NCBI GenBank assembly: GCA_026400395.1
Contig: JAPLPD010000148.1
Location: forward strand, 1 to 51,719
DNA: 51,719 nt
DNA from: Alphaproteobacteria bacterium
Lineage (GTDB): Bacteria > Pseudomonadota > Alphaproteobacteria > Rhizobiales > Xanthobacteraceae
Direction of reading: 5' to 3'
A program made the position numbers and the translations under genes. The notes beneath the pieces are model-generated. The model made no database searches and was not told the origin of the DNA. It saw nothing but the letters and a program-made list of their open reading frames with translations. Positions 13,237 through 49,874 of the stretch are shown here, in pieces; position 1 is the stretch's first letter; each line of letters opens with the position of its first letter.

Positions 13237-13279
13237 GGTCACGCTCCCCCGGCCGGAGCGGAGCGTGACCTATTTCTTT
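13237..13279 (+). terminator. Rho-independent terminator after the Tat-exported Rid gene
   Basis: An 11-base perfect inverted repeat (GGTCACGCTCC at 13237-13247 and GGAGCGTGACC at 13260-13270) is followed by TATTTCTTTTT. It begins six bases after the Rid stop codon. Its right arm overlaps the stop codon of the convergent minus-strand gene. Confidence 0.75.
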
Positions 13280-14361
13280 TTCGGCGCCTTGATCTCATCG
13301 TACTTGGCGAGGGCGCGGCGCAGCGAGCCGTTGAACAACCACATCGCGTCCATGATCTCGCGATAGGTGGCCGATGTCCTTGCGCGGTCCTTTTTACCGA
13401 AGGTGAACATGCTGTTGTTGCGCAGATATCCCATGATCCGCCGGTCGGAAACGCGATAGTTGAGGAGATCGCCCGATTTGATGGCGGCGCGCGTCGGTGT
13501 CGGCACGATCTGGATGAGCTCGAACAGCCTGATCTGATCGATCGGTTCGGGCAGCGCCTTCACGATCGCCGGGAGCTGCGGAAACAGATCGGCGTGGGCA
13601 TTCATGATGCCATTCCGAACCGCGGTCCAGTGATTGTACCGCTGACTGTGCTTGCCGACGCGCGCCTGCTCTTTTTCGTCGCGGGCGATCAGCGCCGAGT
13701 CAACGGCGGCGACCTTTTCCTTGAGCGCCGCCCATTTCTTCTGGCCGATCCGGTCCTCGGACGGGCCGGTCTGATAACTTCCCTTGTAGGCGCTCGACCG
13801 TGCGTTCTCGAGATTTTGCACGCCGCCGGTTTCAGCGAAGAAGATGCCGAGACTGATGCGGCCGGCGATCTCGGCGTGGGCCGCGTCGAGACCTTTGGCG
13901 CGGCCGATGGCGGCGCCAAGCGCAACCACATCGTCGAACGGGGTTTTCGAGTCCTGCGCACCGGAGGGGGGCGACTGCATCGCCTTGAAGAGATTCGAAT
14001 ACTCTTCGAGCAGCGGCTAGTTGTCGGCGTCGAAATACGCCGGGGGAAATCCGAACTTGCTCTGGCGGCCGATCTTTGACGGCAGCAGGTCGGTGAGGTC
14101 CTTGTAGGCGCTGATCATCGCGTTGCGCCCCGTATACAATGCCTGTCCCGGCTTATCTTCCGGCAGTTCCTTGGCCGCGATCTGTGCCCGACGTTCGGCC
14201 AGGATGGCTTTGAAGTCGCTGAGGGCCTGATTGTAGGTGTCGAGCGCTTCCGACTGCTCCTTCGTGAGCGGTTGAGCGGCCACGACCGATGTCAACACCG
14301 CGAGCAGCATGCCGCAGGCGAGCGCGGTGACCGATCGACGGTGGAATTGCCACGCGCTCAA
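13270..14361 (-). pseudogene. Secreted protein of unknown function, interrupted by an in-frame TAG
   Basis: From a TTG at 14361 that overlaps the polA stop codon (TTGA), one continuous minus-strand frame of 364 codons runs to a TAG at 13270. It is broken only by a TAG at 14017-14019 (codon 115). The first part has a signal peptide (about MLLAVLTSVVAAQ) and helical sequence ending YFDADN. Immediately after the TAG the frame continues PLLEEYSNLFKAMQS and then about 235 protein-like residues (SLGIFFAETGGVQNLENAR, IVPTPTRAAIKSGDLLNYRV). No frameshift is needed to join them, so one gene with a nonsense codon is the simplest reading. An alternative is two genes, the second starting at the ATG at 13980, but that start lacks a clear ribosome site. 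The overlap suggests translational coupling to polA. I recognise no family. Confidence 0.65.
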
Positions 14362-17294
14362 TGCGCCTCGTCCCAATTGTGGGCGGCGCGCGCATCGACC
14401 TGCAGCGGCACCGACAGCGATACGGCGGGCATCGGCGCCTCCTCCATGATCCGCTTGACGATCGGCAGGGTCTTGGCGACCTCGCCCTCGGGCACCTCGA
14501 AGATCAACTCGTCGTGCACCTGCAGCAGCATCTTGGCGTTGAGCTTCGCCTTGGTCAGCGCTGGTTCGATCTTCACCATGGCGCGGCGGATGATGTCGGC
14601 GGCGGAGCCTTGCAGCCGCGCGTTGATCGCCGCGCGCTCGTTGAAAGCGCGCAGCGACGGATTGCCCGCCGCGATATCGGGGTAATGGCACTTCCGCCCG
14701 AAGAGCGTCGCCACATAGCCGTTCTTCTTGGCGAATGCCTTGGTCTCTTCCATGTAGTCGCGGATGCCCGGAAACCGTTCGAAATATTTCTTGATGTAGG
14801 CGCCGGCCTCGTCGCGCGGGATCGCCAACTGGTTGGCCAGACCGAACGCCGAGATGCCGTAGATGATGCCGAAGTTGATCGCCTTGGCGCGGCGGCGGAT
14901 TTCGCCCGGCATGTCCTTGACCGGCACGCCGAACATTTCCGACGCGGTCATGGCGTGGATATCGAGGCCGTCGCGGAACGCCTTGCGCAGCGCCGGCACG
15001 TCGGCGACCTCGGCCAGCAGCCGCAGCTCGATCTGCGAATAATCGGCGGAGACGAGCTGTGCGCCCGGCTCGGCGATGAAGGCGCGGCGGATTTTCCGGC
15101 CTTCCTCGGTTCGCACCGGAATGTTCTGCAGGTTCGGCTACGACGACGAAAGCCGGCCGGTGGTGGTGGCGGCCAACGCGTAGCTCGTATGGACCCGGTG
15201 CGTCTCGGCGTTGACGTATCCCGGAAGCGCGTCGGTGTAGGTCGAACGCAGCTTCGACACCTGCCGCCAGTCGAGAATCTTGCGCGGCAGTTCGTGGCCC
15301 TGCTCGGCCAGTTCTTCCAGCGCGCGGGCGCCGGTCGCCCATTGTCCGGTCTTGGTCTTGGTGCCGCCGGGCAGGCCCATCGACCCGAACAGCACGTCGC
15401 CCAATTGTTTCGGGCTGCCGGGATTGAGCGGCTGGCCGGCGAGCTTGCTGATTTCGTCTTCGAGGCCGGCCTGCTTCTGGCCGAACTCGCCGGACAGCCG
15501 CGACAGCACCTGCCGGTCGATGGAAATTCCGCGCCGCTCCATGCGCCCGAGCACCGTCACCAGCGGACGCTCCAGCGTCTCGTACACTGTGGCGACGTGT
15601 TCGGCTGCCATGCGCGACTTGAGCGCTGTCCAAAGCCGGAGCGTGATGTCGGCATCCTCGGCGGCGTGCTCGGCGGCCTTTTCGATGGCGCGCCCGGCGT
15701 CGAGCACGTAAGACATCAGCATCACGTCGTCGTAGGGGTGAACCTCGATGCCGTGGCGGGCGAAAATCTGCCAGTGGTATTTTAGATCCTCGCCGACCTT
15801 GAGCACGCCGGGGTCTTCGAGAATGGTCCGCAGCACGTCGAGTACGGCCTGTTCCGGAAGCTGGTCGGCGCGAAGCTGCGCCTCCGGCGCGAACAGATCG
15901 CTGCCGCCCTGGCTGCCGCCTTCGCGGTGCCCGATCGGCACGTAGCAAGCTTCGTTATCGCCCACCGCGAACGCGACGCCGCAGAGCTGCGCGACCATCG
16001 GGTCGATGCCGGTGGTCTTGGTCGATATGGAAACGACGCCGAGGTCCCTGGCGCGCAACGCCCAGGCGTTGAGCCGGTCGAGCGTGCGGACGGTCTCGTA
16101 TGTGCTGCGGTCGAATGTCTTGGTCCGCGCCGCGGCCAGTTGCTCGGTGGCGAAGGCGGCCGGCGATAGTTCGCCGGTGGCCTCCGCCTTGCTGCGCGGC
16201 TGTGCCGGTGGCGCGAACAGGTCGCCGCTTTTGCCATAGGGGGCCGACGCCCGTACGGCCGGCGCATCAGCGGGCGCGGCGGCCGCCGCCGATGCGAGCT
16301 TGCTGTTGGCCTCGATTTCGCCGGCCTCGATGCCGGATTTCTCGGCCACGCGCCGCGTCAGCGTCGAAAATTCCATCGCTTTGAGAAAGGCGACAAGATT
16401 CTTGTAATCGGGCTCGTGGGCCGCGAGGTCTTCGACCGGCACTTCGAGCGGGACGTTCTGGTCCAGCGTGACGAGCTTCTTGGAGATGCGCGCAAGCTCC
16501 GCATTGTCGATCAGGGTCTGGCGACGCTTCTCCTGCTTGATCTCGCCGGCTCGCTTGAGCAGCGTTTCGAGATCGCCGAACTCCGCCAGCAGCTGCGCCG
16601 CGGTCTTTGGGCCGATCCCGGGCACGCCGGGGACGTTGTCGCTGGTGTCGCCGATCAGCGCCTGCGCTTCGATCACCTTCTCGGGCGGCACGCCGAACTT
16701 CTCGATCACCTCGGCAATGCCGATCCTCTTGTCTTTCATCGTGTCGTACATGGTCACGCAGTCGTTCACGAGCTGCATGAGATCCTTGTCGGACGACACG
16801 ATGGTGGTTGTGGCCTCAGCCTCGCAGGCCAGCCGCGCGTAGGTCGCAATGATGTCGTCGGCTTCGAAGCCCGCCTGTTCCAGGCACGGAATGTCGAAGG
16901 CCCGTGTCGCCTCGCGGATCAGGGGAAATTGCGGGATGAGATCGGCGGGGATGTCGGGGCGGTGCGCCTTGTATTGCGGATATAATTCGGTGCGGAACGT
17001 TTTTTCCGATTTGTCGAACACCACCGCGAGATGCGTGGGCTTCTCCTCGGGCTTCATGTCGTTCAGGAGCTTCCACAGCATGTTGCAGAAGCCCAGCACG
17101 GCGCCGACGGGCAACTTGTCGGACTTGCGGGTCAGCGGCGGCAACGCGTGATAGGCGCGGAAGATGTAGCCCGAGCCATCGACTAGGAAGACGTGGTCGC
17201 CCTTCTTCAGCGAGCCGGCGATTGCGGCGGACTTCTTTGCTGCGGACGCGGCGGCTGCGGGTTTCGCGGCGGTAGTCTTGGGTTTCGAGGGCAT
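14358..17294 (-). pseudogene. polA: DNA polymerase I, split by an in-frame TAG and lacking part of its exonuclease domain
   Basis: The frame spans 979 codons from the ATG at 17294, interrupted by a TAG at 15138-15140 (codon 719). The 5' nuclease domain (about 35-330, starting FLVDGSGYIFRAYHA) looks intact. In the 3'-5' exonuclease domain the Exo I acids are replaced (STKTT where E. coli has DTETD), the Exo II Asp is His (LKYHW), and the Exo III Tyr is His (HAAEDAD). About 35 residues are absent between SYVLDAGR and AIEKAAEHA compared with E. coli PolA. The polymerase domain runs to TTGRLSSS, meets the TAG, then continues in frame as PNLQNIPVRTEEGRKIRRAF with VSADYSQIELR and KAINFGIIYGISAFG. 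The upstream product would keep the 5' nuclease but lack the catalytic aspartates. A sequencing error is possible. Confidence 0.85.
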
Positions 17295-17351
17295 GCCCCG
17301 AATGTGGGCCGTCAGCCGCCGTGAATCAATGCGCGCGGTGGACGCTGTGAA

Positions 17352-18383
17352 TCATTCCGCCGGCTGTAGAACGGGCCCGCGCGCAGACTTCAGCCGAGCC
17401 CAGGCCGGCCGCTCGAACAGGATGCGGAGCGGAGTTCCGCGCACCGACCAGTACCAGACCAGCGCGCCCATCACGCCGGCGGCGGTGACCAGCAGCGATA
17501 CGGTTCCAAGATCGGTTATGATGCCGGTCTTGAGCAAAACCATGCGCGTCAAAGCCATCGGCAGGAAGAACGCGAGGTAGATGACGATGGAATTCTGGCC
17601 GCAATAGCGCAGCGGCTTGAACACATCGCTCATGGCGATCAGCGCGGCGACGGTCACCACAGCGCCGGCGCCGACAAGGCCAAGGCCGAGCGACACGAAC
17701 GGCCGGTCGCCGTAACCGCCCATCACCAGCATTCCGTTGAATATCGCCCAGACCGCGAGCGCGCCGAGCGCCTGCATCGGCTTGTCCTGCACGCGGGCGG
17801 CCAGCGCGAAGATCCGCGTGGCGAAGATGTATCCGGTGTAGAAATAGACGAAGCGGCTGGTGAACTCGTCGATCACGGTCCAGCCGGTGCTGATGTGGGC
17901 GATCTCCAGCGCGGCGCCGACGAGCCACACCACGGGCCATGGCACGTTGCGGGTGAGCTTCACGGCGACGAAAAAGATCGGCAGCAGGTAGATGAACCAC
18001 AGGGTGCCGAACGGCTCGATGAAGGCTTCGACGTAAGCGAAGCCGACGCCGCGCCAGCCCATCTCGGAGGCGAACATCGGCGCCTTGAACGCGAACTGGA
18101 TGGTTACCCACAGCACGTAGAAATAGGCGAAGTGGACGACCTTCTTGTCGAGATAGTCGCGCCAGTCGCGGTCAATGACGCGCGCCAGAAACAGACCTGA
18201 GATCAGGAAGAAGTCGGGCATCCGGAATGGCTTGGCGAAGGCGACGGCGGCGTGCATCCAGCCTTCGCGGCCGGCGGCCTGCTCGACGCCCAGCGTGGAG
18301 TGCATCATCACCACCATGACGATGCAGAAGCCCTTGGCGTAATCGACCCAGTCGATCCGATTGGCCGGTGCGGCGCCTTTCAC
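17352..18383 (-). CDS. Membrane acyltransferase (acyltransferase_3 family)
   Basis: This integral membrane protein has 343 residues and about ten hydrophobic segments. Its N-terminus, NRIDWVDYAKGFCIVMVVMMH, carries the typical R-x-x-x-x-D-Y-A-K-G start and an early catalytic-type His of the acyltransferase_3 family. RMPDFFLISGLFLAR is the second family signature. Such enzymes transfer acyl groups, often acetyl or succinyl, to surface sugars or glucans. The target here is unknown. I choose the GTG at 18383, which has AGGAG six bases upstream; the frame can start 17 codons earlier. It is divergent from ugd, another gene of surface polysaccharide synthesis. Confidence 0.75.
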   Translation of the reverse strand: MKGAAPANRIDWVDYAKGFCIVMVVMMHSTLGVEQAAGREGWMHAAVAFAKPFRMPDFFLISGLFLARVIDRDWRDYLDKKVVHFAYFYVLWVTIQFAFKAPMFASEMGWRGVGFAYVEAFIEPFGTLWFIYLLPIFFVAVKLTRNVPWPVVWLVGAALEIAHISTGWTVIDEFTSRFVYFYTGYIFATRIFALAARVQDKPMQALGALAVWAIFNGMLVMGGYGDRPFVSLGLGLVGAGAVVTVAALIAMSDVFKPLRYCGQNSIVIYLAFFLPMALTRMVLLKTGIITDLGTVSLLVTAAGVMGALVWYWSVRGTPLRILFERPAWARLKSARGPVLQPAE

Positions 18384-18533
18384 ATGATGCTCCTGTGGCT
18401 GGGCATAACCCCCAAGCTGTCGCGCCAGTGTCACCCGGCCGTGGTTTCAGCCCCGTTTACGGCGTCGTGGAATCTCCCGCCTCGAAGCCTCGTCATCATG
18501 ACCGGCCTCTGCTATGAGGCGCCGGCCGCCCCG

Positions 18534-18548
18534 TTAACCATGATTCGA
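18534..18548 (+). promoter_or_regulatory. Possible CtrA half-site with GANTC overlap before ugd
   Basis: TTAACCAT at 18534-18541 equals the extended CtrA half-site. A GATTC, a possible CcrM methylation site, follows directly. The second half-site (TCGA) deviates from TTAA. It lies 11 bases before the ugd start codon. The support is a short motif only. Confidence 0.2.
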
Positions 18549-18552
18549 ATCC

Positions 18553-19881
18553 ATGCGCGTCGCGATGATCGGCTCCGGCTACGTCGGCCTCGTTTCCGGG
18601 GCCTGCTTTGCCGACTTCGGCCACCATGTAGTCTGCGTCGATAAGGACGCGGCCAAGATCAAGGCGTTGCAGCGCGGCGTGATGCCGATCTATGAGCCGG
18701 GCCTGGACGATCTGGTCGCCGCCAACGTCAAGGCGGGGCGCCTCAGTTTTGCGACCGAGCTGAAGGCGGCGGTGGCCGAGGCCGACGCGGTGTTCATCGC
18801 GGTCGGCACGCCGTCGCGCCGTGGCGATGGCCACGCCGATTTGTCCTATGTCTATGCCGCCGCCCGCGAGATCGCAGCGGCGGTCGACGGCTTCACCGTT
18901 GTGGTGACCAAGTCCACCGTTCCAGTCGGCACCGGCGATGAGGTCGAGCGCATCATCGGCGAGGCGCGGTCCGATGCCGATGTCTCCGTCGTCTCCAATC
19001 CGGAGTTTCTCCGCGAGGGCGCGGCGATCCAGGACTTCAAGCACCCCGACCGCATCGTGGTCGGCACCGAGGACCCGCGCGCGTCGAAGGTGATGGCGGA
19101 GCTTTATCGCCCGCTCTATCTCAACCGCTCGCCGATCATCACCACCGGCCGGCGCACCGCCGAACTGATCAAGTACGCGGCCAACGCCTTCCTTGCCACC
19201 AAGATCACCTTCATCAACGAGATGGCTGATCTGTGCGAGAAGGTCGGCGCCGATGTGCAGGAGGTCGCGCGCGGCATCGGCCTCGACAACCGCATCGGCA
19301 GTAAATTCCTGCACGCCGGGCCGGGTTACGGCGGCTCATGCTTCCCCAAGGACACGCTGGCGCTGATCAAGACCGGCCAGGACTACGAGGCGCCACTGCG
19401 CATCGTTGAGACGGTGGCGTCGGTCAACGAAATCCGCAAGCGCGCCATGGCGCGCAAGGTGACGGCGGCGCTGGGCAGCAGCCTGCGCGGCAAGACCGTC
19501 GGCGTGCTCGGCCTGACCTTCAAGCCGAACACCGACGACATGCGTGACGCGCCGTCGATCCCGCTGATCACGGCGCTGCACGACATGGGGGCGACGGTAC
19601 GCGCCTACGATCCTATCGGCATGGAGCAGGCCAAGAAGATGCTGCCCGAGCTGACCTACTGCGAGGACGAATATGAATGCGCCAAGGGCGCTGACGCGCT
19701 GGTCATTGTCACGGAGTGGGAGCAGTTCCGCGCGCTTGACCTCGATCGGCTAAAACAAGCGATGGCGGACAAGCCCGCGATCGTCGATTTGCGCAACATC
19801 TATTTGCCGGAAGAGATGCGCCAGCACGGCTTCGTCTACGAAAGCATCGGCCGGTCCTCAAAGCCCGCCAAGGGCAACTGA
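18553..19881 (+). CDS. ugd: UDP-glucose 6-dehydrogenase
   Basis: This enzyme oxidises UDP-glucose to UDP-glucuronate with two NAD+, feeding capsule, exopolysaccharide or lipopolysaccharide synthesis. The 442-residue length is typical. GSGYVG at 7-12 binds NAD, and PIYEPGLDDLV follows. TKSTVPVGT and NPEFLREGAAI are the conserved central motifs. The catalytic cysteine is C263 in GYGGSCFPKD. The C-terminal UDP-binding domain includes VGVLGLTFKPNTDDMRDAPS. hrpB starts only 41 bases downstream on the same strand. Confidence 0.95.
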   Translation: MRVAMIGSGYVGLVSGACFADFGHHVVCVDKDAAKIKALQRGVMPIYEPGLDDLVAANVKAGRLSFATELKAAVAEADAVFIAVGTPSRRGDGHADLSYVYAAAREIAAAVDGFTVVVTKSTVPVGTGDEVERIIGEARSDADVSVVSNPEFLREGAAIQDFKHPDRIVVGTEDPRASKVMAELYRPLYLNRSPIITTGRRTAELIKYAANAFLATKITFINEMADLCEKVGADVQEVARGIGLDNRIGSKFLHAGPGYGGSCFPKDTLALIKTGQDYEAPLRIVETVASVNEIRKRAMARKVTAALGSSLRGKTVGVLGLTFKPNTDDMRDAPSIPLITALHDMGATVRAYDPIGMEQAKKMLPELTYCEDEYECAKGADALVIVTEWEQFRALDLDRLKQAMADKPAIVDLRNIYLPEEMRQHGFVYESIGRSSKPAKGN

Positions 19882-19922
19882 TTCCGGTTGTCTTGTCCTG
19901 TTGAAGCAGGGCATCCAAGGGC

Positions 19923-22400
19923 ATGGGAATCTTCGACCCCGAACTGCCGATCGACGAGGCGCTGCCGCGCCTGACCGCGGCGTTGCGGCAGGGGGCCAAC
20001 GCCGTTCTGGTGGCGCCGCCGGGGGCCGGCAAGACCACCCGCGTGCCGCTGTGGCTGCGCGACGCGCTGTGGGCCGCTGACAAAAAGATACTGGTGCTGG
20101 AGCCGCGCCGGCTCGCCGCGCGCGCCGCCGCCGAGCGGATGGCGGCGACGCTGAACGAAAGCGTTGGCGAAACGGTCGGCCTGCGGGTGCGCTTCGGCTC
20201 CAAGGTCTCGCGCAAGACGCGGATCGAGGTGATCACCGAGGGCATTTTCACACGGCTCATTCTCGACGATCCGTCGCTCGATGGAATTGCCGCGGTGCTG
20301 TTCGATGAATTCCACGAGCGCTCGCTCGATGCCGATCTGGGCCTGGCGCTGGCCTACGACGTGCAGCAGAATCTGCGCGACGATCTGCGGCTGGTGGTGA
20401 TGTCGGCGACGCTCGACGGCGCCCGGGTGGCCAAACTGCTTGGCGACAAATCGGGCGATGCGCCGGTGATCGAGAGCGAGGGCCGCGCGTTTCCGGTCGA
20501 GACGCGCTATCGCGGCCGCGATCCGAACGTGCTGGTCGAGCGCCAGATGGCCGATACGGTGGCGCGGGCGCTGCGCGCCGATCCGGGTTCTATCCTGGCG
20601 TTCCTGCCGGGGCAGGCGGAAATCCGCCGCACCGAGACGGTGCTGCGCGAACTGGTGGCCGACCCGGCGGTAGACATCGTGACGCTCTACGGCGCGCTCG
20701 ACGCCCAGACGCAGGACCGCGCGATTTCGCCGGCGCCACCGGGACGGCGCAAGGTCGTGCTGGCGACCTCGATCGCCGAAACGTCGATCACCATCGAGGG
20801 CGTGCGGATCGTGGTCGACTGCGGCCTTGCCCGGGTGCCCCGCTACGAGCCGGACGTGGGCGTGACACGGCTTGAAACCGTGCGGGTCTCGCGCGCCGCC
20901 GCGGACCAGCGGCGTGGCCGCGCCGGCCGCACCGAGCCCGGCATTTGCTATCGGCTGTGGGACGAGCCGCAGACCGCGTCGCTCGACGCCTATGCGCGGC
21001 CGGAGATTCTTACCGCCGACCTGTCGGGCATGCTGCTCGATCTGGCGCAATGGGGTGCGGTCGATCCGGCCAAGCTCGCGTTTCTCGATCCGCCGCCGGC
21101 CGGAACGCTGGCGGAAGCGAGGGCGCTGCTCACCGAACTCGGCGCCATCGATGCGGAGCGCCGCATTACGGACCAGGGCCGCAAACTGCGCCAGTTGCCG
21201 CTGCCGCCGCGACTCGCACGCATGGTGGTTGCCGCCGCGAGCGAGGGCGCGGGCCAGCGCGCGGCTGCCATTGCGGCGATCCTGTCGGAGCGTGGGCTCG
21301 GCGGCACCGACGTCGATCTTGCCCACAGGCTCGATCAGTTCCGCAACGACCGCTCGCGCCGCGGCGAACAAGGACGGCGCATGGCCAAGCGCTGGGCGGA
21401 CGACGCGGGCGCGGGTGCGCAGACATCCGATCTCTCGCCCGGCGCGATCCTCTCACTCGCCTATCCTGAGCGCATCGGCAAAAGCCGCGGCAGCAACGGC
21501 GCGTTCCTGCTGGCCAACGGCCGCGGCGCCAATATGGATCAATCATCGCCGCTGGCGCGCGAGCCGTTTCTCGCAGTGGCGGAGCTTGCCGGCACCGCCG
21601 CCCAGAGCCGCATCCTGCTGGCCGCGCCGATTACGCTCGCCGAGATCGAGCAGCGCTTTGCCGACCGGATCGAGCGCCGCGAGGACATCAGCTTTGACGC
21701 TGCGTCGGCGAGCCTGCGTGGCCGCGCCAGCGACCGGCTTGGGGCGATCGTGCTGGCCGAGCGGCCGTTCCAGGTGCAGCCCGGCGGCGTGGCTGCCGCA
21801 AAGCTTGCCGAAGGCATTGCGCGGCTCGGCATCGGCCGGCTGCCGTGGACCAGCGCCCTGCAGCAGTGGCGCGACCGCGTCATGTTTCTTCGCCGCGCCG
21901 AAGCGGGCGAGTGGCCAGACCTGTCCGACGCAGCGCTCGCGGAGAGCGGTGCCGATTGGCTGGTGCCGTTGCTCGACGGCAAGACCGCGCTCGCCTCCGT
22001 GTCGGCGGATGCGATGGCGGCGGCGGTCGGCGGGCTGTTGCCGTGGAATCTCAAGCGACGGCTCGATGCCGAGGCGCCGACGCATTTCGCCGCGCCGTCC
22101 GGCTCCTCGGTGCCGATCGACTACGGCGCGGAGGAAGGGCCGAAGCTCGCCATTCGCGTGCAGGAACTGTACGGCCTCGACCGCCATCCGAGCGTGGCCG
22201 GCGGCAAGGTGCCGCTGGTGGTGGAACTGCTTTCGCCAGCCCATCGGCCGGTGCAGGTGACGCGCGACCTGCCCGGATTTTGGCGCGGCTCCTATGCGGC
22301 GGTGAAGTCCGACATGCGGGGCCGCTACCCTCGCCATTCCTGGCCAGACGATCCAGCGCGGGCGCCGGCCACCCGCCGCGCCAAGCCGCGCGGAACCTGA
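19923..22400 (+). CDS. hrpB: ATP-dependent helicase HrpB
   Basis: HrpB is a DEAH-family helicase of unclear cellular role. The protein has 825 residues, near the usual 810-830. Walker A is PGAGKTT at 33-39, and the Walker B box is the family-specific DEFHER from 128, with VMSATLDG as motif III. QRRGRAGRTEPGICYRLW is motif VI. A helicase-associated domain and an HrpB-specific C-terminus (VQELYGLDRHPSVAGGKVPL, ITRDLPGFWRGSY-like) complete it. A Lys/Arg-rich tail ends the protein. It lies directly downstream of ugd and may be co-transcribed with it. Confidence 0.93.
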   Translation: MGIFDPELPIDEALPRLTAALRQGANAVLVAPPGAGKTTRVPLWLRDALWAADKKILVLEPRRLAARAAAERMAATLNESVGETVGLRVRFGSKVSRKTRIEVITEGIFTRLILDDPSLDGIAAVLFDEFHERSLDADLGLALAYDVQQNLRDDLRLVVMSATLDGARVAKLLGDKSGDAPVIESEGRAFPVETRYRGRDPNVLVERQMADTVARALRADPGSILAFLPGQAEIRRTETVLRELVADPAVDIVTLYGALDAQTQDRAISPAPPGRRKVVLATSIAETSITIEGVRIVVDCGLARVPRYEPDVGVTRLETVRVSRAAADQRRGRAGRTEPGICYRLWDEPQTASLDAYARPEILTADLSGMLLDLAQWGAVDPAKLAFLDPPPAGTLAEARALLTELGAIDAERRITDQGRKLRQLPLPPRLARMVVAAASEGAGQRAAAIAAILSERGLGGTDVDLAHRLDQFRNDRSRRGEQGRRMAKRWADDAGAGAQTSDLSPGAILSLAYPERIGKSRGSNGAFLLANGRGANMDQSSPLAREPFLAVAELAGTAAQSRILLAAPITLAEIEQRFADRIERREDISFDAASASLRGRASDRLGAIVLAERPFQVQPGGVAAAKLAEGIARLGIGRLPWTSALQQWRDRVMFLRRAEAGEWPDLSDAALAESGADWLVPLLDGKTALASVSADAMAAAVGGLLPWNLKRRLDAEAPTHFAAPSGSSVPIDYGAEEGPKLAIRVQELYGLDRHPSVAGGKVPLVVELLSPAHRPVQVTRDLPGFWRGSYAAVKSDMRGRYPRHSWPDDPARAPATRRAKPRGT

Positions 22401-39812: not shown

Positions 39813-39845
39813 CGGGATCGGCCTTTCGTCAAAGGAGAGGGATTG

Positions 39846-41207: not shown

Positions 41208-41222
41208 TTAACCACTCATTAG
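41208..41222 (+). promoter_or_regulatory. CtrA-like box upstream of tadD
   Basis: TTAA-N7-TTAG at 41208-41222 differs by one base from the CtrA consensus TTAA-N7-TTAA, and its left half reads TTAACCA as in strong sites. It lies about 73 bases before the tadD start and 105 bases before the aminopeptidase start. A second TTAAC follows at 41225. See the matching boxes at 50024 and 51494. Confidence 0.4.
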
Positions 41223-41295
41223 GGTTAACGTTTTATTGCTCGAGTCCTCGCCCGGCGGTCAGCGCCGTTCGATCCCCGTTGAGGGCTTGCGCACA

Positions 41296-42096
41296 ATGCC
41301 ACGACCACCCGCGCGCCTCCTCGCCTCCGCCGCCGTATTCGCAGCCCTGGCTCTTGGCGGCTGTTCGACCACGGCCGGGACGGGTGACACCACCGGATCG
41401 ATCGCCACGAACTCCGCGCCGCGCTCGGCAGTGCAGTGGCGGCAGGAGATGGACACCTGGGGTGAGCGCTATCGCGCCAGCCCGGCGGACCCGGATGCCG
41501 CCGTCCGTTATGCTCAGGCGCTCCGCGCCATTGGGCAGCGCGCGCAGGCCGCCGCCGTGCTCGAACAGGCGGCAATCCACAACACCGACAATCGGGCAGT
41601 GCTCGGCGCCTACGGCCGCGCGCTGGCCGACAACGGAAATTTCCAGCAGGCGCTCGACGTTCTCAACCGGGCCCACACGCAGGATCAGCCCGATTGGCGC
41701 ATCCTGTCGGTCCAGGGCGCGGTGCTCGACCAGATGGGCCGCCATCCCGAAGCACAGCGATACTACGCCAGCGCTCTGCGGTTGAAGCCGGACGAGCCCT
41801 CCGTGCTTTCCAATCTCGGACTGTCCTACGCATTGTCGAAGAACCTTCGTGAGGCGGAAACGACCTTGCGGCGTGCCGCGGAGCAGCGCGGGGCCGAGCC
41901 GAAGGTGCGGCAGAACCTCGCGCTCGTCGTCGGTTTGCAGGGCCGTTTCCAGGAGGCGGAAACCATTGCGCGGGGCGATCTGTCAGAAGGCGAAGCCGCG
42001 GCCAATGTCGCCTATCTGCGGCAGATGCTGGCTCAGCAGGGCGATTGGAAGAAGACCAAGCGTGGCTCTCCGCTGGCGCCGACGACCGGCTCCTAG
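41296..42096 (+). CDS. tadD: Tad pilus assembly lipoprotein TadD (TPR protein)
   Basis: The 266-residue product carries a lipoprotein signal (LALGGCS, lipid Cys near residue 22) and then several tetratricopeptide repeats from about 60 to 230 (AVRYAQALRAIGQRAQAAAV, SVLSNLGLSYALSKNLREAE). TadD is an outer-membrane lipoprotein that helps assemble the Tad secretin and pilus. The start at 41296 (MPRPPARLLASA) gives a proper lipoprotein signal; the frame opens earlier. It is convergent with tadC, on the opposite strand to the rest of the locus. Confidence 0.85.
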   Translation: MPRPPARLLASAAVFAALALGGCSTTAGTGDTTGSIATNSAPRSAVQWRQEMDTWGERYRASPADPDAAVRYAQALRAIGQRAQAAAVLEQAAIHNTDNRAVLGAYGRALADNGNFQQALDVLNRAHTQDQPDWRILSVQGAVLDQMGRHPEAQRYYASALRLKPDEPSVLSNLGLSYALSKNLREAETTLRRAAEQRGAEPKVRQNLALVVGLQGRFQEAETIARGDLSEGEAAANVAYLRQMLAQQGDWKKTKRGSPLAPTTGS

Positions 42097-42114
42097 GCTG
42101 ATACCCGGATCGCT

Positions 42115-43137
42115 CTACTTCGGCTTGAGGACCGGCGTGCTGGTGTTGGTGTCCTGCGTGGCCATCACGCGGATGGCCGCTGGCCCCAGAATGACGACGA
42201 ACAGCACCGGCAGGAAGAACAGGATCATCGGCACGGTGAGCTTGGGCGGCAGCGCTGCGGCCTTCTTCTCGGCCTCCGACATGCGCATATCGCGGTTTTC
42301 CTGCGACATCACCCGTAGCGTCTGGGCGAGCGGCGTGCCGTAGCGCTCCGCCTGCTGCAGCGCCATACACACGGATTTGACGCCGTCGAGATCGGTGCGC
42401 TTGGCGAGATTCTCGTAGGCGGATTTGCGGTCCTGCAGATAGGACAACTCCGCTGTCGTCAGCGTTAGTTCTTCCGCCAGAGGGATCGATTGCGAGCCGA
42501 TTTCCGCGCTGACCCGCTTGAACGCGGCTTCGATCGACATTCCGGATTCGACGCAGATCAGCAGCAGATCGAGTGCGTCGGGAAAGGCGCGCTTGATGGA
42601 GAGCTGCCGCTTGGCAATACGGTTCTTGAGGAAGAAATACGGCACCTGCATGCCGGCGTACGCGGCGGCCAGACAGATACCGACCTTGACCATCGCCGGC
42701 TGGTCGAGTTCCAGAACCACGAACATGTAGAACAGCGCGGCCACAAACATGAGGACCGGCGTGACAAGCCAGAAGAACAGGAATGCGACATAGGTTGCCT
42801 GGCCGCGATAGCCGGCCTGCACCAGCTTCTCGCGCGCCTCTTCCTGCGCAAGCCATTTGGTCAGATTGAATCGTTCGACGATCCTCGCCATGTACTGCTT
42901 GGGCGACGACCGCAGCGAAACCTTTTCCTTCTCGCCGCGCGACAGACGTTCACGTTCGCGCTGGCGGATCTTTTCGCGTTCGAGCGCGACAGACCTCATG
43001 CGCTTGTCGAGCACGTTGGGCGACAGCACGGGCATTGCGATCGTCAGCACCGTGGCCACAGCAGCCAGCCCCGCAAGCAGAGCTGTGAGCTGCTTGGGGT
43101 TCATGTTGTAGATCGTCTCGATCAGTGTCCGAAGCAT
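42115..43137 (-). CDS. tadC: Tad pilus inner-membrane platform protein TadC
   Basis: This 340-residue protein has the type II secretion F-domain (about 180-310: FPDALDLLLICVESGMSIEAA, SYLQDRKSAYENLAKRTDL) and about four hydrophobic segments. With TadB it forms the inner-membrane platform on which the ATPase drives pilus assembly. It lies nine bases downstream of tadB in the same direction and is the last gene of the minus-strand tad cluster. Confidence 0.9.
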   Translation of the reverse strand: MLRTLIETIYNMNPKQLTALLAGLAAVATVLTIAMPVLSPNVLDKRMRSVALEREKIRQRERERLSRGEKEKVSLRSSPKQYMARIVERFNLTKWLAQEEAREKLVQAGYRGQATYVAFLFFWLVTPVLMFVAALFYMFVVLELDQPAMVKVGICLAAAYAGMQVPYFFLKNRIAKRQLSIKRAFPDALDLLLICVESGMSIEAAFKRVSAEIGSQSIPLAEELTLTTAELSYLQDRKSAYENLAKRTDLDGVKSVCMALQQAERYGTPLAQTLRVMSQENRDMRMSEAEKKAAALPPKLTVPMILFFLPVLFVVILGPAAIRVMATQDTNTSTPVLKPK

Positions 43138-43146
43138 GGGGCTGGC

Positions 43147-44121
43147 TCAAAAATCGAAGTTGATCATCTGCTTCATGACGAACACGCCGGTGCCCATCCA
43201 CATGGCGCATCCGGCCATCATGAAGCGGCCCAGGTCGGTCATCCAAAGCAGTTCGATGTAATCCGGGCTGGTGATCCAGACCAGCGTGCCGACTGCGATC
43301 GGCAGGAAGCCGATGATCGAGGCGGAAGCCTTGGCTTCCATCGACATGGCCTGAATCTTGGCCTTCATCTTCTTGCGGTCGCGCAACACGCGCGACAGGT
43401 TGCCGAGCGCTTCGGACAGATTGCCGCCGGCCTTCTGCTGGATCGAAATGACGATGCCGAAGAAGTTGGCTTCGGGCAGCGGCATGCGATCATAGAGCTT
43501 GGCGCAGGCTTCGCCGATTGGCATGCCGATGGTCTGCGTTTCGACGATCGCCTTGAACTCGCTTTTGATGGGCTCTTGCGCGTCGAGCGCGATGATCTTG
43601 AGACTGTCGAGCAGCGGCAGTCCGGCCTTGATGCCGCGCACGATCACGTCCACGCCATCGGGAAAATTGTTGAGGAATTTCTTTTCGCGGCGCTTCTTGA
43701 GGAACGACAAAAGCCAGCGGGGGACGCCGAATGCGGCGGCAAAGCCGACGCCCAGCGCAGGCAGCGGGTTGCCGACGAACACGAACACCGCCACGAAGGC
43801 AAACAATCCGTGGCCGGCTGAGATCATCAGGAACTGATTTTTCGACCAGGTCAGGCCGGCCTGGGAGATCTTCATGGCCAGCGGCGGATTATTCGGTTTT
43901 TTCGCCTTGACGTCGATTTCCTTCAACGTGTCTTCAACCTGCTCGCGGCGCGATTTCTGCACACGGATGGCTGCGCGGGCGGCCGGCTCCGAGCGCGTTG
44001 CGTTGGCGCGCCGCTGCTCGACCTTCCGTTCGCCCGAAATGAGCGGATAAATGAACACGTAGGCAACGCCGCCGATCGCGGTCGCCACCATCCCGAACAT
44101 GGCCAACGCCTGCATTTTCAT
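43147..44121 (-). CDS. tadB: Tad pilus inner-membrane platform protein TadB
   Basis: The protein has 324 residues from the ATG at 44121 (MKMQALAMFGM); the frame can start 14 codons earlier. It has a first hydrophobic segment, a charged cytoplasmic stretch (about 30-85), two helices, and a T2SS F-domain with NNFPDGVDVIVRGIKAGLPL and ANFFGIVISIQQKAGGNLSEAL. It partners with TadC. The gene starts 14 bases after the tadA stop, consistent with one operon. Confidence 0.9.
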   Translation of the reverse strand: MKMQALAMFGMVATAIGGVAYVFIYPLISGERKVEQRRANATRSEPAARAAIRVQKSRREQVEDTLKEIDVKAKKPNNPPLAMKISQAGLTWSKNQFLMISAGHGLFAFVAVFVFVGNPLPALGVGFAAAFGVPRWLLSFLKKRREKKFLNNFPDGVDVIVRGIKAGLPLLDSLKIIALDAQEPIKSEFKAIVETQTIGMPIGEACAKLYDRMPLPEANFFGIVISIQQKAGGNLSEALGNLSRVLRDRKKMKAKIQAMSMEAKASASIIGFLPIAVGTLVWITSPDYIELLWMTDLGRFMMAGCAMWMGTGVFVMKQMINFDF

Positions 44122-44134
44122 CGGATGCGGTCCC

Positions 44135-45634
44135 TCATCGCACCGGCGCCATGGCGATTTCACCGGCGTCGAGGGCGGCGGCCAGCCGCTTTTCCTCGCC
44201 GTAGTAGCGCGCGCGATCCCAGAATTTCGGACGCCCGTTGCCGGTCGACTTGTGCGAGCCGATCAGATTTCCCTGCGCGTCCTCTCCGGTCATCTCGTAG
44301 ACGAACAGGTCCTGCGTAATGATGACGTCGCCTTCCAGACCGACCACCTCAATGATGTGGGTGATTTTGCGCGAGCCGTCGCGCAGACGCGCGGCCTGCA
44401 CCACGACATCGACGGACGCCACGATCATTTCGCGGATGGTCTTGGACGGCAGCGAATAGCCGCCCATGGTGATCATGGATTCGATACGGGACAACGCCTC
44501 GCGCGGCGAGTTGGCGTGCAGCGTGCCCATCGAACCGTCGTGACCGGTGTTCATCGCTTGCAGAAGATCGAATGCTTCGGGTCCGCGGACTTCGCCGACG
44601 ATGATCCGCTCCGGGCGCATACGCAGGCAGTTTTTGACCAGATCGCGCATGGTGACCTGGCCTTCCCCTTCGAGGTTCGGCGGCCGGGTTTCCAGACGCA
44701 CCACATGGGGCTGCTGGAGCTGCAGTTCGGCGGCGTCCTCGCATGTGATGATGCGCTCGTCGTCGTCGATGAACTGCGTCAGGCAGTTGAGCAGAGTGGT
44801 CTTGCCCGAGCCGGTGCCGCCGGAGACGATGGTGTTGACCCGGCAACGGCCAAGGATTCTGAGAACCTCCGCGCCTTCTTCCGTGATCGAATTGAATTTG
44901 ACGAGATTGGCGAGCCGAAGCTTGTCCTTCTTGAACTTACGAATGGTGAGGGCAGGACCATCGAGCGAAAGCGGCGGCGCGATCACGTTGACACGCGATC
45001 CGTCCGGGAGGCGGGCGTCGCAGATCGGAGAGGATTCATCGACACGGCGGCCGATCTGGCTGACGATGCGCTGACAGATGTTGAGAAGCTGCTGGTTGTC
45101 ACGAAACCGGATGCCGGTCTTCTGGATCTTACCGCTGACTTCGATGAATACGTGGCCCGAGCCGTTGACCATGATGTCGGCGAAGTCGTCGCGGGCCAGC
45201 AACGGCTCAAGCGGGCCGTAGCCGAGAACGTCGTTGCAGATGTCGTCGAGCAGTTCCTCCTGCTCGGAAATCGACATCACGATGTTCTTGATCGCGATGA
45301 TCTCGTTGACGATATCGCGGATTTCCTCGCGCGCGGCGTCGGCGTCGAGTCGTGCGAGTTGCGCCAGATCGATCGCCTCGATCAGCGCGCCGAACACCGT
45401 GCCTTTGGTTTCGTAGTAGCTTTCAGAGCGGCGCGCGTCGGTTGCCATCGCTGGCGGTTGAGCGGCGATGCGGGTGGGTGTTGCCGGGGCGCTGACGAGC
45501 GGCGCGCCGAGTCCCGCCGAGGAAAGCGGCGAAAGCCGGTCCGGGCTGCTTTGCGGCGCCGGCGCTGGCTTCGGCGCTGCCATCGGCGCCGCTGGCGCTG
45601 GCCTTGCATCGGTGGTGCTACGCTTGCCGAACAC
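44135..45634 (-). CDS. cpaF: Tad pilus assembly ATPase TadA/CpaF
   Basis: This 499-residue protein starts at a GTG (45634). After a Pro/Ala-rich N-terminus (about 1-65) comes the secretion ATPase core: GYGPLEPLLARDDFADIMVN, Walker A GGTGSGKTT near 271-279, the Asp box TCEDAAELQL, Walker B IIVGEVRGPEAFD and the His box MGTLHANSPREAL. It powers Flp pilus extension. All motifs look functional, so the motor is intact. Confidence 0.94.
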   Translation of the reverse strand: MFGKRSTTDARPAPAAPMAAPKPAPAPQSSPDRLSPLSSAGLGAPLVSAPATPTRIAAQPPAMATDARRSESYYETKGTVFGALIEAIDLAQLARLDADAAREEIRDIVNEIIAIKNIVMSISEQEELLDDICNDVLGYGPLEPLLARDDFADIMVNGSGHVFIEVSGKIQKTGIRFRDNQQLLNICQRIVSQIGRRVDESSPICDARLPDGSRVNVIAPPLSLDGPALTIRKFKKDKLRLANLVKFNSITEEGAEVLRILGRCRVNTIVSGGTGSGKTTLLNCLTQFIDDDERIITCEDAAELQLQQPHVVRLETRPPNLEGEGQVTMRDLVKNCLRMRPERIIVGEVRGPEAFDLLQAMNTGHDGSMGTLHANSPREALSRIESMITMGGYSLPSKTIREMIVASVDVVVQAARLRDGSRKITHIIEVVGLEGDVIITQDLFVYEMTGEDAQGNLIGSHKSTGNGRPKFWDRARYYGEEKRLAAALDAGEIAMAPVR

Positions 45635-45647
45635 GACGTCCCAACCT

Positions 45648-46874
45648 TTACTTCTTCATCAGTTTGCCGAGCAGCGGCGTGAACAGGCCGCCCTTGGCCT
45701 TCTTCACTTCGGAACGGCCGGTCAAGAGTTGTGCAAGATGCCGAAACGTCTCCGCGGTGCGATGGTTCGCTGAAACCTCGGCGATCATCTGGCCGTTGTT
45801 GGAGGCGGTCCCGAACATCTGCGGGTCAAACGGAATGATGGCCACCGGTTGATCTTCCAAAGCTTTGGCGAAATCGGCCGGCTTGATTTCCGGCCGCTTC
45901 GGCACGCCGACCTGATTCAGACAGTAGGACGGGCGGTGGTCGTTGACGCGCGCGGCCCGCAGATAGTCGAACAGGTTCTTGGCGTTGCGAAGATTGGCAA
46001 GGTCCGGCGCCGCGACAATGAGAATGTCGTCGGCGTTCACGAGGGTGCGCTGGGTCCAGCCGCTCCACTGGTGCGGCAAGTCGAGCACGATGCAGGGCAT
46101 GGTGGCCCGCAGCGCGTCGAAGATGCCATCGAATGCCTCGACGCCGAAGTCGTAGGCGCGTTCAAGCGTGGCCGGCGCCGCCAGCAGGCTCAGGTGATCG
46201 GTGCATTTCGACAGCAAGCGATCGACAAAAGCGGTGTCGATGCGGTCGGGGGAAAACACTGCGTCTGCGATACCTTGTGGCGGGTCCTGGTTGTAGTCGA
46301 GGCCGGCGGTGCCGAACGCGAGGTCCATATCGGTGACCACGGAATCAAGCGAGAGATCCCGGGCGACAGACCATGCGATGTTGTGAGCGATGGGGGAGGC
46401 CCCGACGCCGCCCTTTGCGCCAACGACGGCGACGACGCGGCCAATGTCGATCGTGCCGACCGGAGAGATCATGTAATCGCTGACGCCGCGCCGGACCAGT
46501 TCCCGGTACAGCGTCACGTCGTTAGTCCGGCCGATCACCACGACGCGGGTGCCGGCGTCGCAGAATTCGGCCAATGCATCGAGGCCGGCCAGGATGCCGT
46601 CGCCGCGGCCGTCCGCCTCGATCATGATGACGTTGGGGGTGGGCGAGCCGCGATAGGCTTCAATCGCGGCGGCGATGCCGCCCATCTGGATTTTGACGTG
46701 GGCCTTGCCCAGCCGGCGATCCTCGCCGGCGGACTGGATCGCGGCCGCGGTCTCGACCGTTTCGCTGAACGCCTGCACGGATACGCGCGGCGCTGGAGCA
46801 ATGTGCTCGTCGCGCGGCGCGGCCTCCGCGTCCTTCGGCTCAGCCATGACAGCTTGTGAGGAGGTTCTGATCAT
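45648..46874 (-). CDS. cpaE: Tad pilus localisation protein CpaE/TadZ, with an altered P-loop
   Basis: The ATG at 46874 overlaps the cpaD stop (ATGA), giving 408 residues. An atypical receiver-like domain (about 55-140) is followed by a ParA/MinD-type ATPase domain. TadZ marks the pole where the pilus is built. Its P-loop reads KGGVGASPIAHN at 154-165, with Pro at the position where relatives have Thr or Ser. Directly before it, SPVGTIDIGRVVAVVG seems to lack about 18-20 residues that relatives have between the receiver-like and ATPase domains. The rest (DLAFGTAGLDYNQDPPQGIA) is normal. ATP binding may be impaired. Confidence 0.88.
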   Translation of the reverse strand: MIRTSSQAVMAEPKDAEAAPRDEHIAPAPRVSVQAFSETVETAAAIQSAGEDRRLGKAHVKIQMGGIAAAIEAYRGSPTPNVIMIEADGRGDGILAGLDALAEFCDAGTRVVVIGRTNDVTLYRELVRRGVSDYMISPVGTIDIGRVVAVVGAKGGVGASPIAHNIAWSVARDLSLDSVVTDMDLAFGTAGLDYNQDPPQGIADAVFSPDRIDTAFVDRLLSKCTDHLSLLAAPATLERAYDFGVEAFDGIFDALRATMPCIVLDLPHQWSGWTQRTLVNADDILIVAAPDLANLRNAKNLFDYLRAARVNDHRPSYCLNQVGVPKRPEIKPADFAKALEDQPVAIIPFDPQMFGTASNNGQMIAEVSANHRTAETFRHLAQLLTGRSEVKKAKGGLFTPLLGKLMKK

Positions 46875-47614
46875 TTGCCTATCTCGCTGATCGCGCCCTT
46901 GCCTGCATCGGGATAGGTGGTCGCCGGGCTTTCGCCCTTGCGCCATTTGTCGGTGCCGAAGGTGCGCTTGGCGTTGTAGGCCGGCGCGTCGGCGCGCGGT
47001 TGCACCAGATCGGCCGGTTCGGCGACCATCGAGGCGAGATTGCGCTGAGTGGCGCAGCCGAAGTTGTAGTACTGCCGGTTCTCGAAATGCTTGGTCTGGT
47101 AGCTTGCCCCCAGATCGTCAGGCCACTGCCCGCATGGACCGGCCTCCGCCACCATCAACGGGTAATTCAGCCGAAGGTTCGCGTTCTTGCCCTCGGAATG
47201 ATACGGCCTGATCCCGATGCCGGAGTTGGGCACGCCGGCTTGCACGATGATCGAGATAGCCTCTCTCAACGAGTCATTGGCGGCGCGATCGTTGCTCCCA
47301 CCCACTGGGCGGTCGATGGTGACGCCGCCGGTGGCGTCGCGCTTCCAGTTCTGGGCGAATGCGAGGACTTCGGCGCGCTGCATCGGCGACAGCCCGCCGC
47401 GAACCGCGCCGACGAAGAGCACCAGGGACTTCTTGCCTTCCTTCACCGCGATCGGATGCCGGTCGGTGTAGGCGAGCGGAATGCCGCCAGTCGTGTCTGT
47501 GGCGGTCGTTGTGTTGCAACCGGCGAGCCCGGCGGCGCAACCCGCGATCAGCAGGCCACGGGACGCGAATCCGGCGGCGTGGCGTCGGGCGACGTTGAGA
47601 AATTCAAACTGCAT
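46871..47614 (-). CDS. cpaD: Tad pilus assembly lipoprotein CpaD
   Basis: This 247-residue lipoprotein has a signal ending in GLAGCN. The CpaD core includes SPMQRAEVLAFAQNWKRDA and PYHSEGKNANLRLNYPLMVA, then CGQWPDDLG and FGCATQRNLASMVAEPADLV, the family C-terminal signature. A good ribosome site, GAGGAG, precedes the ATG. CpaD helps target the CpaC secretin to the outer membrane. It starts 23 bases after the cpaC stop. Confidence 0.9.
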   Translation of the reverse strand: MQFEFLNVARRHAAGFASRGLLIAGCAAGLAGCNTTTATDTTGGIPLAYTDRHPIAVKEGKKSLVLFVGAVRGGLSPMQRAEVLAFAQNWKRDATGGVTIDRPVGGSNDRAANDSLREAISIIVQAGVPNSGIGIRPYHSEGKNANLRLNYPLMVAEAGPCGQWPDDLGASYQTKHFENRQYYNFGCATQRNLASMVAEPADLVQPRADAPAYNAKRTFGTDKWRKGESPATTYPDAGKGAISEIGK

Positions 47615-47637
47615 CGGTCGTCTCCTCGTCGCGTGAC

Positions 47638-49092
47638 TCAGTCCAGAAAGAAACCAACATTGCCGCGATAGCTCTTCTCACGCGGATTATCCTGGCCCGG
47701 CGTCCCGTAAAGTCGATTGAACCGGCCGAGCAGGCTGGTGGACGCATCGGATGCGTCCGCGTAGCCGTCGTCCGGCTTCGATAGATCCTTCTGCGCCACC
47801 GAGCGCACGATGTATGGCGTGACCATCACCACCAGCTCGGTTTGCCGGTTGATGAAGTCGCGGCTCTTGAACAGGGCGCCGAGCACCGGGATGTTCATCA
47901 GGCCCGGCAGGCCGTTGAGCTGCTGCTTGGTCTGCTCCTGGATCATGCCGGCCATGGCGAGCGATCCGCCGGAGGGAATCGCCACCGTGGTTTCGGCGCG
48001 CCGCGTCTTGATCGACGGAATGGTGAGCGTGGTGTTCTGGGTGGCGCTGATCGCCTGCGTCAGCGTCAGGGCGTTGTCGTTCGACAGTTCGGACACCTCG
48101 GTCAGCACCTTCAGGCTGATGCGGCCTTCGGCCAGCACAACCGGCGTGAAGTTCAAGCCGACGCCGAACTTTTTGAACTGGATCTGTGTCTGACAATTGC
48201 GGGTCGTGGGATCGCAGGTGAAGCCCGCCGGAATCGGGAATTCGCCGCCGGCCAGGAAGTTCGCGGATTCGCCGGAGATGGCCGTGAGGTTTGGCTCGGC
48301 CAGGGTGCGGATCACGCCGGCGCGTTCCATGGCGCGCAGCGTGGCGGTCACGCCGCGGTAGCTCGCGCTGATGCCGTTGGAGTTCAGCGCCGAGCCCAGC
48401 ACTGGAAATGGATTGACGTTGGTGAGGTTGACCACCGAGTTGCCGCTGTTCACCGTGCCGCTCAGGTCGATGCCGAGCTGCTTGATGACCTCGCGCTGCA
48501 CCTCGGCCACGGTGACTTTCAGCATCACCTGGTCGCGGCCCCGCACTGAGATACCGTTGACGACGCGGCTGCCGTCGCCGGCGAGCCGGGCTGCGAGATC
48601 GAAGGCCCGCTGGGATTCGCTCTGGCTCGCGACCGAACCGGACAACATGATGCCGTCGGCGAGACCTTCAACATGAATTTCGACTTCAGGCAGCGACCGC
48701 TTGAGCGCGGCGCGAATGCCGTTCAGATCGCGGGTCACCGCGATGTCGAAAGCCATGAGTTGTTTACCTTCGGCATCGAAGAAATAGACGTTGGTCTGAC
48801 CGACCGCGACGCCGATGATGTAGGCGCGGCGCGATGTCCGCACGACCGCGTTGGCGATCTTGGGGTCGGCGACCAGCACGTCTTTGATATCGCCGGGCAG
48901 GTCGATCACGATGCTCTTGCTGACCCCGAGCGGGACGAACTGCGCCGACTTGTCGCCGTAAATTTGCACGGCGGGCGCGGCCAGCCTCTCGCCGGTGTCT
49001 GCGGCGCCGGCCGGCGCGGACGATCCGAGCGTTGCCATGACGATCAGCGCCGCCGAGGCTGCGGTGCGGACAATCGTCGTCACTCTCGTCAT
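47638..49092 (-). CDS. cpaC: Tad pilus outer-membrane secretin CpaC/RcpA
   Basis: The 484-residue product from the ATG at 49092 (AGGAG nearby) has a signal peptide ending PAGA, a pilus/BON-like N-terminal domain (IVIDLPGDIKDVLVADPKIAN, AYIIGVAVGQTNVYF), and a secretin domain at about 200-440 with SGESANFLAGGEFPIP and VAIPSGGSLAMAGMIQE. It forms the outer-membrane pore for the pilus. An earlier ATG at 49116 overlaps the cpaB stop, so translational coupling is also possible. Confidence 0.92.
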   Translation of the reverse strand: MTRVTTIVRTAASAALIVMATLGSSAPAGAADTGERLAAPAVQIYGDKSAQFVPLGVSKSIVIDLPGDIKDVLVADPKIANAVVRTSRRAYIIGVAVGQTNVYFFDAEGKQLMAFDIAVTRDLNGIRAALKRSLPEVEIHVEGLADGIMLSGSVASQSESQRAFDLAARLAGDGSRVVNGISVRGRDQVMLKVTVAEVQREVIKQLGIDLSGTVNSGNSVVNLTNVNPFPVLGSALNSNGISASYRGVTATLRAMERAGVIRTLAEPNLTAISGESANFLAGGEFPIPAGFTCDPTTRNCQTQIQFKKFGVGLNFTPVVLAEGRISLKVLTEVSELSNDNALTLTQAISATQNTTLTIPSIKTRRAETTVAIPSGGSLAMAGMIQEQTKQQLNGLPGLMNIPVLGALFKSRDFINRQTELVVMVTPYIVRSVAQKDLSKPDDGYADASDASTSLLGRFNRLYGTPGQDNPREKSYRGNVGFFLD

Positions 49093-49112
49093 GGACCTGC
49101 TCCTGTGTGACG

Positions 49113-49874
49113 TCATTTGATGCTGTTGACACCGAAGCGGACGGTGTTGATGTCGGTTTTGCGTTCTTCTTCGACGACCTTGCTGGCGTCGAGCAGGCTG
49201 CGGAGCGCGAGCGACAGCGTGCCAACCTGGCGCGCCTGCGTCAGCGTTTCGGCCTGCCGAGGTGCGATCTCCAGAGTCGCGGTCTTGCCGACCACGACGC
49301 GCTGGCCGTTCTTTTCCTCGATGGTCTGGTCGATAGCGAGCACGCGAACGTTGACGAGGATCGTTTCGCTGGATGCGAGCTGGTTCTTGTCGTTCTCTTT
49401 GGGGCGGCGCGAGAGAATCACATCGACGCGGTCATTCGGCAGGATGAAGCCGCCGGCGCCTGTTTCAGGCGAGATTTCGGTGGAGACCGCGCGCATGCCG
49501 GATGGCAGGATCGCCGCCATATAGCCGGCGGCGCCGTTGGCCCGGATCAGCTTGGCGTCGCGGATCGGCTCGCCCGCGGTGAACGGTGCCCGGGTGATGG
49601 CGCCCGCCAGCTCCTCGAGGGCGCCCGGCTTGTCCTACTTGGTGATGTAGCTGTCGCCGGTGGTGGCGGCGGGCCAAGCCTGCCATTGCATATCCTGGCT
49701 GGCGATTGCCGTTCCCATGCCGATGTCGCTCTTGGCGATCAGCACGTCGGTGGTCTCAAGCTGGACGACGGGAGGAGCTTCCGGCTTCTTTTATTCGTCG
49801 CCGCCAATCATGAACGCGGCGGCACCACCCGCTGCGAGGGCGACGGCAAGCACAAGAATACGCGCGGCTTTCAT
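49113..49874 (-). pseudogene. cpaB: Flp pilus assembly protein CpaB, interrupted by two in-frame stops
   Basis: One frame of 254 codons from the ATG at 49874 to a TGA at 49113 encodes a complete CpaB: a signal-anchor (MKAARILVLAVALAAGGAAA), VQLETTDVLIAKSDIGMGTA, the SAF-like GEPIRDAKLIRANGAAG, and the RcpC/CpaB domain with GAGGFILPNDRVDVILSRR. It is interrupted by a TAA at 49791-49793 (codon 28) and a TAG at 49635-49637 (codon 80). No frameshift is present. Each stop is one base from a sense codon. CpaB is normally needed for Tad pilus assembly, and its neighbours are open. Sequencing error is a real alternative. Confidence 0.85.

Follow-up and report, generated by a model that had tools for sequence, protein, structure and literature searches.

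In-frame stop codons in polA, a neighbouring gene and cpaB of a Rhodoplanes-related alphaproteobacterium resemble an ordinary background of isolated nonsense substitutions

The window analysed here, 51,719 nucleotides of DNA forming the whole of contig JAPLPD010000148.1 (C214), belongs to the draft genome of a Rhodoplanes-related alphaproteobacterium (labelled G000, with relatives numbered G001 onward, contigs C and loci L) and carries four in-frame TAG or TAA codons in three minus-strand genes, namely the DNA polymerase I gene polA, the gene overlapping its end and the Flp/Tad pilus assembly gene cpaB. A preliminary description of the sequence had pointed these codons out, and all four are present where it placed them (Table 1). 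We propose that they are most probably isolated nonsense substitutions of an ordinary background kind in a draft assembly; because their density in related genomes is much the same, they look like recent gene damage or single-base assembly errors, and not like a new code or a readthrough system. The genome comprises 5.31 Mb in 369 pieces, is 99.2% complete and contains N runs, and from this fragmentation and the N runs we infer a metagenome origin.

Interrupted frames and the codons of their orthologues

As had been described, the reading frame continues past each stop without a frameshift, and Pfam matches follow in the same frame in polA and in the third piece of cpaB: the DNA_pol_A profile is matched over positions 2-124 before the polA stop and over positions 126-381 after it, and the RcpC/CpaB profile matches the piece of cpaB that lies beyond the second stop. 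The gene overlapping the end of polA has no Pfam match over cut-off, and an NCBIfam search of two of its intact orthologues likewise returned no match; long orthologues with an uninterrupted frame exist, however, in records of Rhodoplanes and Bradyrhizobium, the closest of 17 named loci coming from a metagenome assembly called Rhodoplanes piscinae, at 82% identity.

We compared the residues at each stop among the relatives with a locus spanning the site, counting once G003, which is present under two ids. At the polA stop, where the loci compared were drawn from 40 relatives with matches, the relatives have Glu or, less often, Asp, and at the stop of the overlapping gene Glu is found in every orthologue locus except the one of 17 that lacks coverage of the site. 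The two cpaB sites are more variable, with Asn, Arg and Thr once each beside the predominant Lys at 49635, and with Glu (2), Asp (2), Ser, Thr and Pro (1 each) and one stop among eight relatives in the gappy linker alignment around 49791. That single stop is the TAA of G010 cpaB, which follows the N-terminal hydrophobic segment at almost the same position and beyond which the frame continues as well. Sense codons in the orthologues at the stops, together with family sequence beyond them, mark these as nonsense-broken genes; orthologues ending at the same places, which would have made the stops natural gene ends, were not seen apart from the G010 cpaB TAA, and natural ends are ruled out by orthologues that stay open across the sites.

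The proposal that all four stops would fit a Glu codon changed by G to T is well supported at 15138 and 14017 and possible at 49791, but 49635 is Lys in most relatives and the proposal therefore fails for at least one of the four. As cpaB is interrupted twice in G000 and once in a second species, we read it as genuine decay, most likely a young pseudogene in a pilus locus. Matters stand differently for polA, whose PF00476 match is the only one in the genome and has one TAG inside, ruling out a second copy: over the 439 codons from its deletion (Table 1) onward there is no site at which G000 differs while G003 agrees with all outgroups compared. The same strict test in cpaB gave four private sites in G000 against one in G003, too few to call. 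The polA stop thus stands alone in a fully conserved domain and is therefore either very recent or a single-site consensus error; the same choice applies to the stop of the gene beside it, and sequence alone cannot separate the two possibilities.

Table 1. Positions of the interrupted genes, their stops and related features (window coordinates unless a locus is named)
Feature	Position	Strand	Evidence or remark
polA (DNA polymerase I)	14358..17294	-	Pfam 5'-3' exonuclease, 3'-5' exonuclease and DNA_pol_A; TAG after 718 codons
In-frame TAG, polA	15138..15140	-	29 relatives' loci cover the site: 25 Glu, 4 Asp
polA 3'-5' exonuclease domain	15687..16394	-	motifs altered
polA junction in the 3'-5' exonuclease domain	15680..15700	-	35 codons fewer than relatives; 105-base gap in relatives' matches, alignment and DNA
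Unnamed-family gene overlapping polA end, TAG-broken	13270..14367	-	open orthologues; upstream start not fixed
In-frame TAG, overlapping gene	14017..14019	-	Glu in 16 of 16 covering orthologues
cpaB (Flp/Tad pilus assembly), two stops	49113..49874	-	Pfam RcpC and NCBIfam pilus_cpaB on third piece; open in 7 of 8 relatives
In-frame TAA, cpaB, past N-terminal hydrophobic segment	49791..49793	-	G010 TAA at about the same place
In-frame TAG, cpaB	49635..49637	-	Lys in 5 of 8 relatives
Acyltransferase-like gene beside polA	17355..18434		open in the window
Acyltransferase-like gene, G002	L083 4356..5231		in-frame TAG; also frameshifted
Acyltransferase-like gene, G003	L081 6233..7297		in-frame TAG, differing from that of G002
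cpaB, G010	L056		stop-bearing
tadB, G001	L085 4509		stop-bearing
Second-locus secretin, G001	L182 12306		stop-bearing
TadD-like gene, G000	L098, C265:33405		stop-bearing

Frequency and type of in-frame stops in the genome and its relatives

A two-codon coding-potential scan was run over 1,391,194 bases of G000 (26% of the genome) and, in the same form, over 520,756 bases of eight relatives, whose regions were a non-random choice made by synteny to the window and to a second pilus locus. The scan of G000 returned 79 candidates, the majority of them taken to be normal adjacent genes sharing a frame, and 13 stops were kept, comprising three of the four studied here (49791 was missed by the scan) and ten elsewhere: in an amidase gene (C251), a TctC gene (C159), a TctB gene and a TadD-like TPR gene (both C265), a caspase-domain gene (C146), a deacetylase gene (C137), a kinase/receiver gene (C315), a further kinase gene (C345), a DUF2207 gene (C163) and a transposase gene (C208). 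Sense codons occupy the stop position in 7/7 sequences compared with the TadD-like gene (all Tyr), in nearly all TctC paralogue rows (Gly), in 2/2 for the caspase gene (Glu), in 4/4 relatives for the C345 kinase, in every relative row for the deacetylase and in 3/3 for the DUF2207 gene. A Pfam domain spans the stop in the caspase, receiver, DUF2207_C, TctC and TctB genes and does not in the deacetylase; the amidase gene, which loses its frame further on and has a partial Pfam match, was, like the transposase gene, kept as a candidate from the sorting of the scan. An XdhC-like gene on C308 (L189, 8446-9483) was dropped, its TAG lying at the same place in G007, G001 and G009, and the two-frame split of this gene in the four genomes is, as its shared position indicates, an old natural arrangement.

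The relatives' regions gave 21 candidates, of which five were kept (three in G002 and one each in G003 and G001), and two more stops, in G001 tadB and G010 cpaB, were found by homology only. The resulting density of kept in-frame stops is 9.3 per Mb in G000 versus 9.6 per Mb in the relatives, among which the stops are unevenly spread, with none in 100 kb of G004 and three in 59 kb of G002. Broken genes in the relatives include the cpaB and tadB genes just named and the acyltransferase-like genes of G002 and G003. Three damaged genes among about 45 had been called high for a chromosome region, which holds locally but not in comparison with G002, whose comparable 59 kb contains three genes judged stop-broken together with two frameshift places, each backed by five or six queries and one of them falling in one of the stop-broken genes. 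Four frame changes in the window, each resting on a single query, are taken as artefacts of fused query genes. Among the ABC ATPase matches in G000, 105 of 106 are free of internal stops, the exception being a short piece on C119, where about three would be expected at the density of the window.

The absence of TGA among the four stops, also pointed out earlier, is expected by chance (P 0.42-0.54), as single-base changes in the codons of the window's called genes would yield TAG in 62-64%, TAA in 17-24% and TGA in 14-20% of cases, varying with transition bias. The expected share of G>T among chance stop-making changes is 14-25% and that of A>T 9-16%, so that up to three G>T among four stops is mildly unusual, in a pattern spotted after the fact. 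Taking all 14 G000 stops together (49791 added to the 13 kept from the scan), relatives or paralogues show a clear residue at seven, which is consistent with G:C>T:A at five (15138, 14017 and those in the TadD-like, TctC and caspase genes) and not at two (49635 and the C345 kinase stop, mostly Gln in relatives); the other seven have no clear original codon. The five of seven lend the earlier idea of G-to-T change slight support, as a tilt in the spectrum of the stops.

A single G-to-T cause for all four stops is not borne out, given the predominance of Lys at 49635 and private missense changes without a clear G-to-T excess. Of the 45 genes called in the window, 29 had enough relatives for comparison; in these, 165 of the 5632 conserved columns carry a residue private to G000 (2.9%, against 1.7-5.6% in eight relatives), and 21 of its private changes are radical (0.37% of conserved columns, relatives 0.09-0.58%). 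Private single-base missense changes are G>T/C>A in 24 of 118 cases (20%), against 108 of 641 (17%, range 6-28%) pooled over the eight relatives. A uniform G:C>T:A process yielding four stops would be expected to add about 17 private missense changes to a baseline of about 19, where 24 were observed; such a process behind all four appears moderately disfavoured, and a weak genome-wide one would still be compatible with the counts.

Competing explanations and the state of polA

Ordinary, isolated nonsense substitutions remain our preferred account, although several points tell against it. The scan candidates were sorted by eye, polA is a gene whose loss one would not expect, and five of the seven stops with a clear original residue fit G:C>T:A, which has a P of 0.01-0.12 depending on transition bias (0.05 at 34%) and lies above chance at equal or low bias. 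The window also clusters stops, with three detected where the ten found in the remaining 1.34 Mb predict 0.39 (P 0.007 for a single window); the genome holds 103 windows of this size, and 0.74 such clusters are expected among them. Of the causes named in the preliminary description, gene decay and consensus error both still stand, with stops that interrupt genes open in their orthologues. Consensus error throughout is the alternative we take most seriously: poor read coverage, mixed strains or oxidised DNA read as G-to-T changes, for example, could have placed errors at all four sites, which we regard as possible but rather doubtful. The assembly is a fragmented draft with N runs, the polA stop is solitary in its conserved domain, and spurious internal stops from assembly are common and track assembly quality (PMC11017572). 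Against this, the G:C>T:A missense count falls short of what a uniform process predicts, a low-quality patch would be expected to bring 12-25 missense changes per stop and a uniform error of any kind about 25, where polA has 0 private sites in the strict test, and cpaB holds two stops and has its counterpart in G010.

A mutator or host-restricted lineage decaying genome-wide, for instance through a defective DNA polymerase I or oxidative damage, could draw on the G:C>T:A tilt and on the condition of polA itself, whose 3'-5' exonuclease domain has SxK for DxE, His for the second-motif Asp and 35 codons missing. Among 24 aligned polA proteins, from 30 genomes with a polA locus, 13 keep DxE and 10 are without it, the state of G006 being unclear; on a tree built from the polymerase domain the motif changes six times, at least three of them by well-supported branches, and G000 is without the motif where its sisters G002 and G003 retain it. 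The stop density does not follow motif loss, however, as it matches that of the relatives and as G002, with the motif intact, has its three stops in 59 kb where G004, with the motif lost, has none, and we therefore do not tie the loss of proofreading to the stops. The private missense spectrum is moreover not clearly shifted, and the size and completeness of the genome are those given above, so that this lineage-wide explanation is not needed and appears improbable. A DNA polymerase I without proofreading is also already known, for example in Helicobacter pylori (PMC3121766). Two further candidates at this gene were rejected: a chimeric contig at the deletion, since the first 300 residues are nearer to G004 than to G003 or G002 but the DNA identity of the window has no clear switch, and a TAA in the polA match of G015, which lies upstream of the start.

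Decoding of TAG and TAA as amino acids in functional genes, by readthrough or a changed code, would account for the coding frame kept beyond each stop and for the lack of relaxed constraint in polA past its stop, and bacterial examples of in-frame stops under purifying selection have been described (PMC7918605). It nevertheless seems highly unlikely. The RF1 gene (prfA) scores over cut-off and has no internal stops, and the low score of RF2 is explained by an N run and not by an altered protein; none of the stop anticodons CTA, TTA and TCA occurs in the 37 of 38 tRNA matches read by ARAGORN, one weak match being uncalled and the set being incomplete, since it lacks a tRNA for Trp and the GAT-anticodon tRNA for Ile. 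The residues in the relatives differ among the sites, the gene interrupted at 14017 itself normally terminates with TAG, and the ABC ATPase matches are almost wholly stop-free.

With isolated nonsense substitutions as the working explanation, RF1 would end translation normally at all four codons. CpaB acts in Flp/Tad pilus assembly, and as it would end after 27 residues, a pilus from this locus should not assemble. If the polA stop is real, the 718 residues kept would run from the 5'-3' exonuclease through the degenerate 3'-5' domain into the beginning of the polymerase domain, with the polymerase part lost. The N-terminal 341 residues of E. coli Pol I suffice for growth (PMC6379578), and a real polA stop therefore need not be lethal. 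A bolder scenario, in which a free-living alphaproteobacterium first lost Pol I proofreading and part of that domain and then, by fixation of an amber codon, its polymerase half as well, so that replication and repair would depend on the 5'-3' exonuclease part and on other polymerases, strikes us as a long shot.

Neighbouring genes and comparison with known systems

The family of the gene overlapping polA is about 350 residues long, and its orthologues extend to records beyond the two genera named above. The acyltransferase-like gene on the other side of polA and the stop-bearing Tad/Flp genes are listed in Table 1; the latter show in-frame stops in more than one species of this genus, though not at one shared position, and because the regions compared are rich in pilus genes this is not a measure of enrichment. 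A G002 match (L229) to the G000 deacetylase also has one internal TAG, at a different place. A "tRNA-???" called by ARAGORN at 7475-7568 was set aside, as it lies inside a long open frame.

The main value of these observations is one of caution: with the high GC content of this genome, TAG and TAA should make up 80-86% of chance stops, and at the density seen about one window per genome should contain three broken genes. The four stops resemble the nonsense pseudogenes and spurious stops of draft genomes (Cooley and Wright 2024, PMC11017572) in being single in-frame stops in conserved genes at a density shared within the genus, and differ from those cases in that each may be either a real mutation or an error of the assembly. 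They share with stops under purifying selection (Belinky et al. 2021, PMC7918605) a coding sequence conserved past the stop; unlike them, the stops of polA and its neighbour occur in G000 only, and of the four just the first one in cpaB is matched by a stop in a relative. The polA stop is closest to the viable E. coli polA1 amber mutant (PMC6379578), being likewise an amber codon that would leave the 5'-3' exonuclease part and remove the polymerase; polA1 stops at residue 342, whereas the apparent stop here follows 718 residues, inside the polymerase domain, and if it is real and fixed it would represent a natural case of that laboratory mutant.

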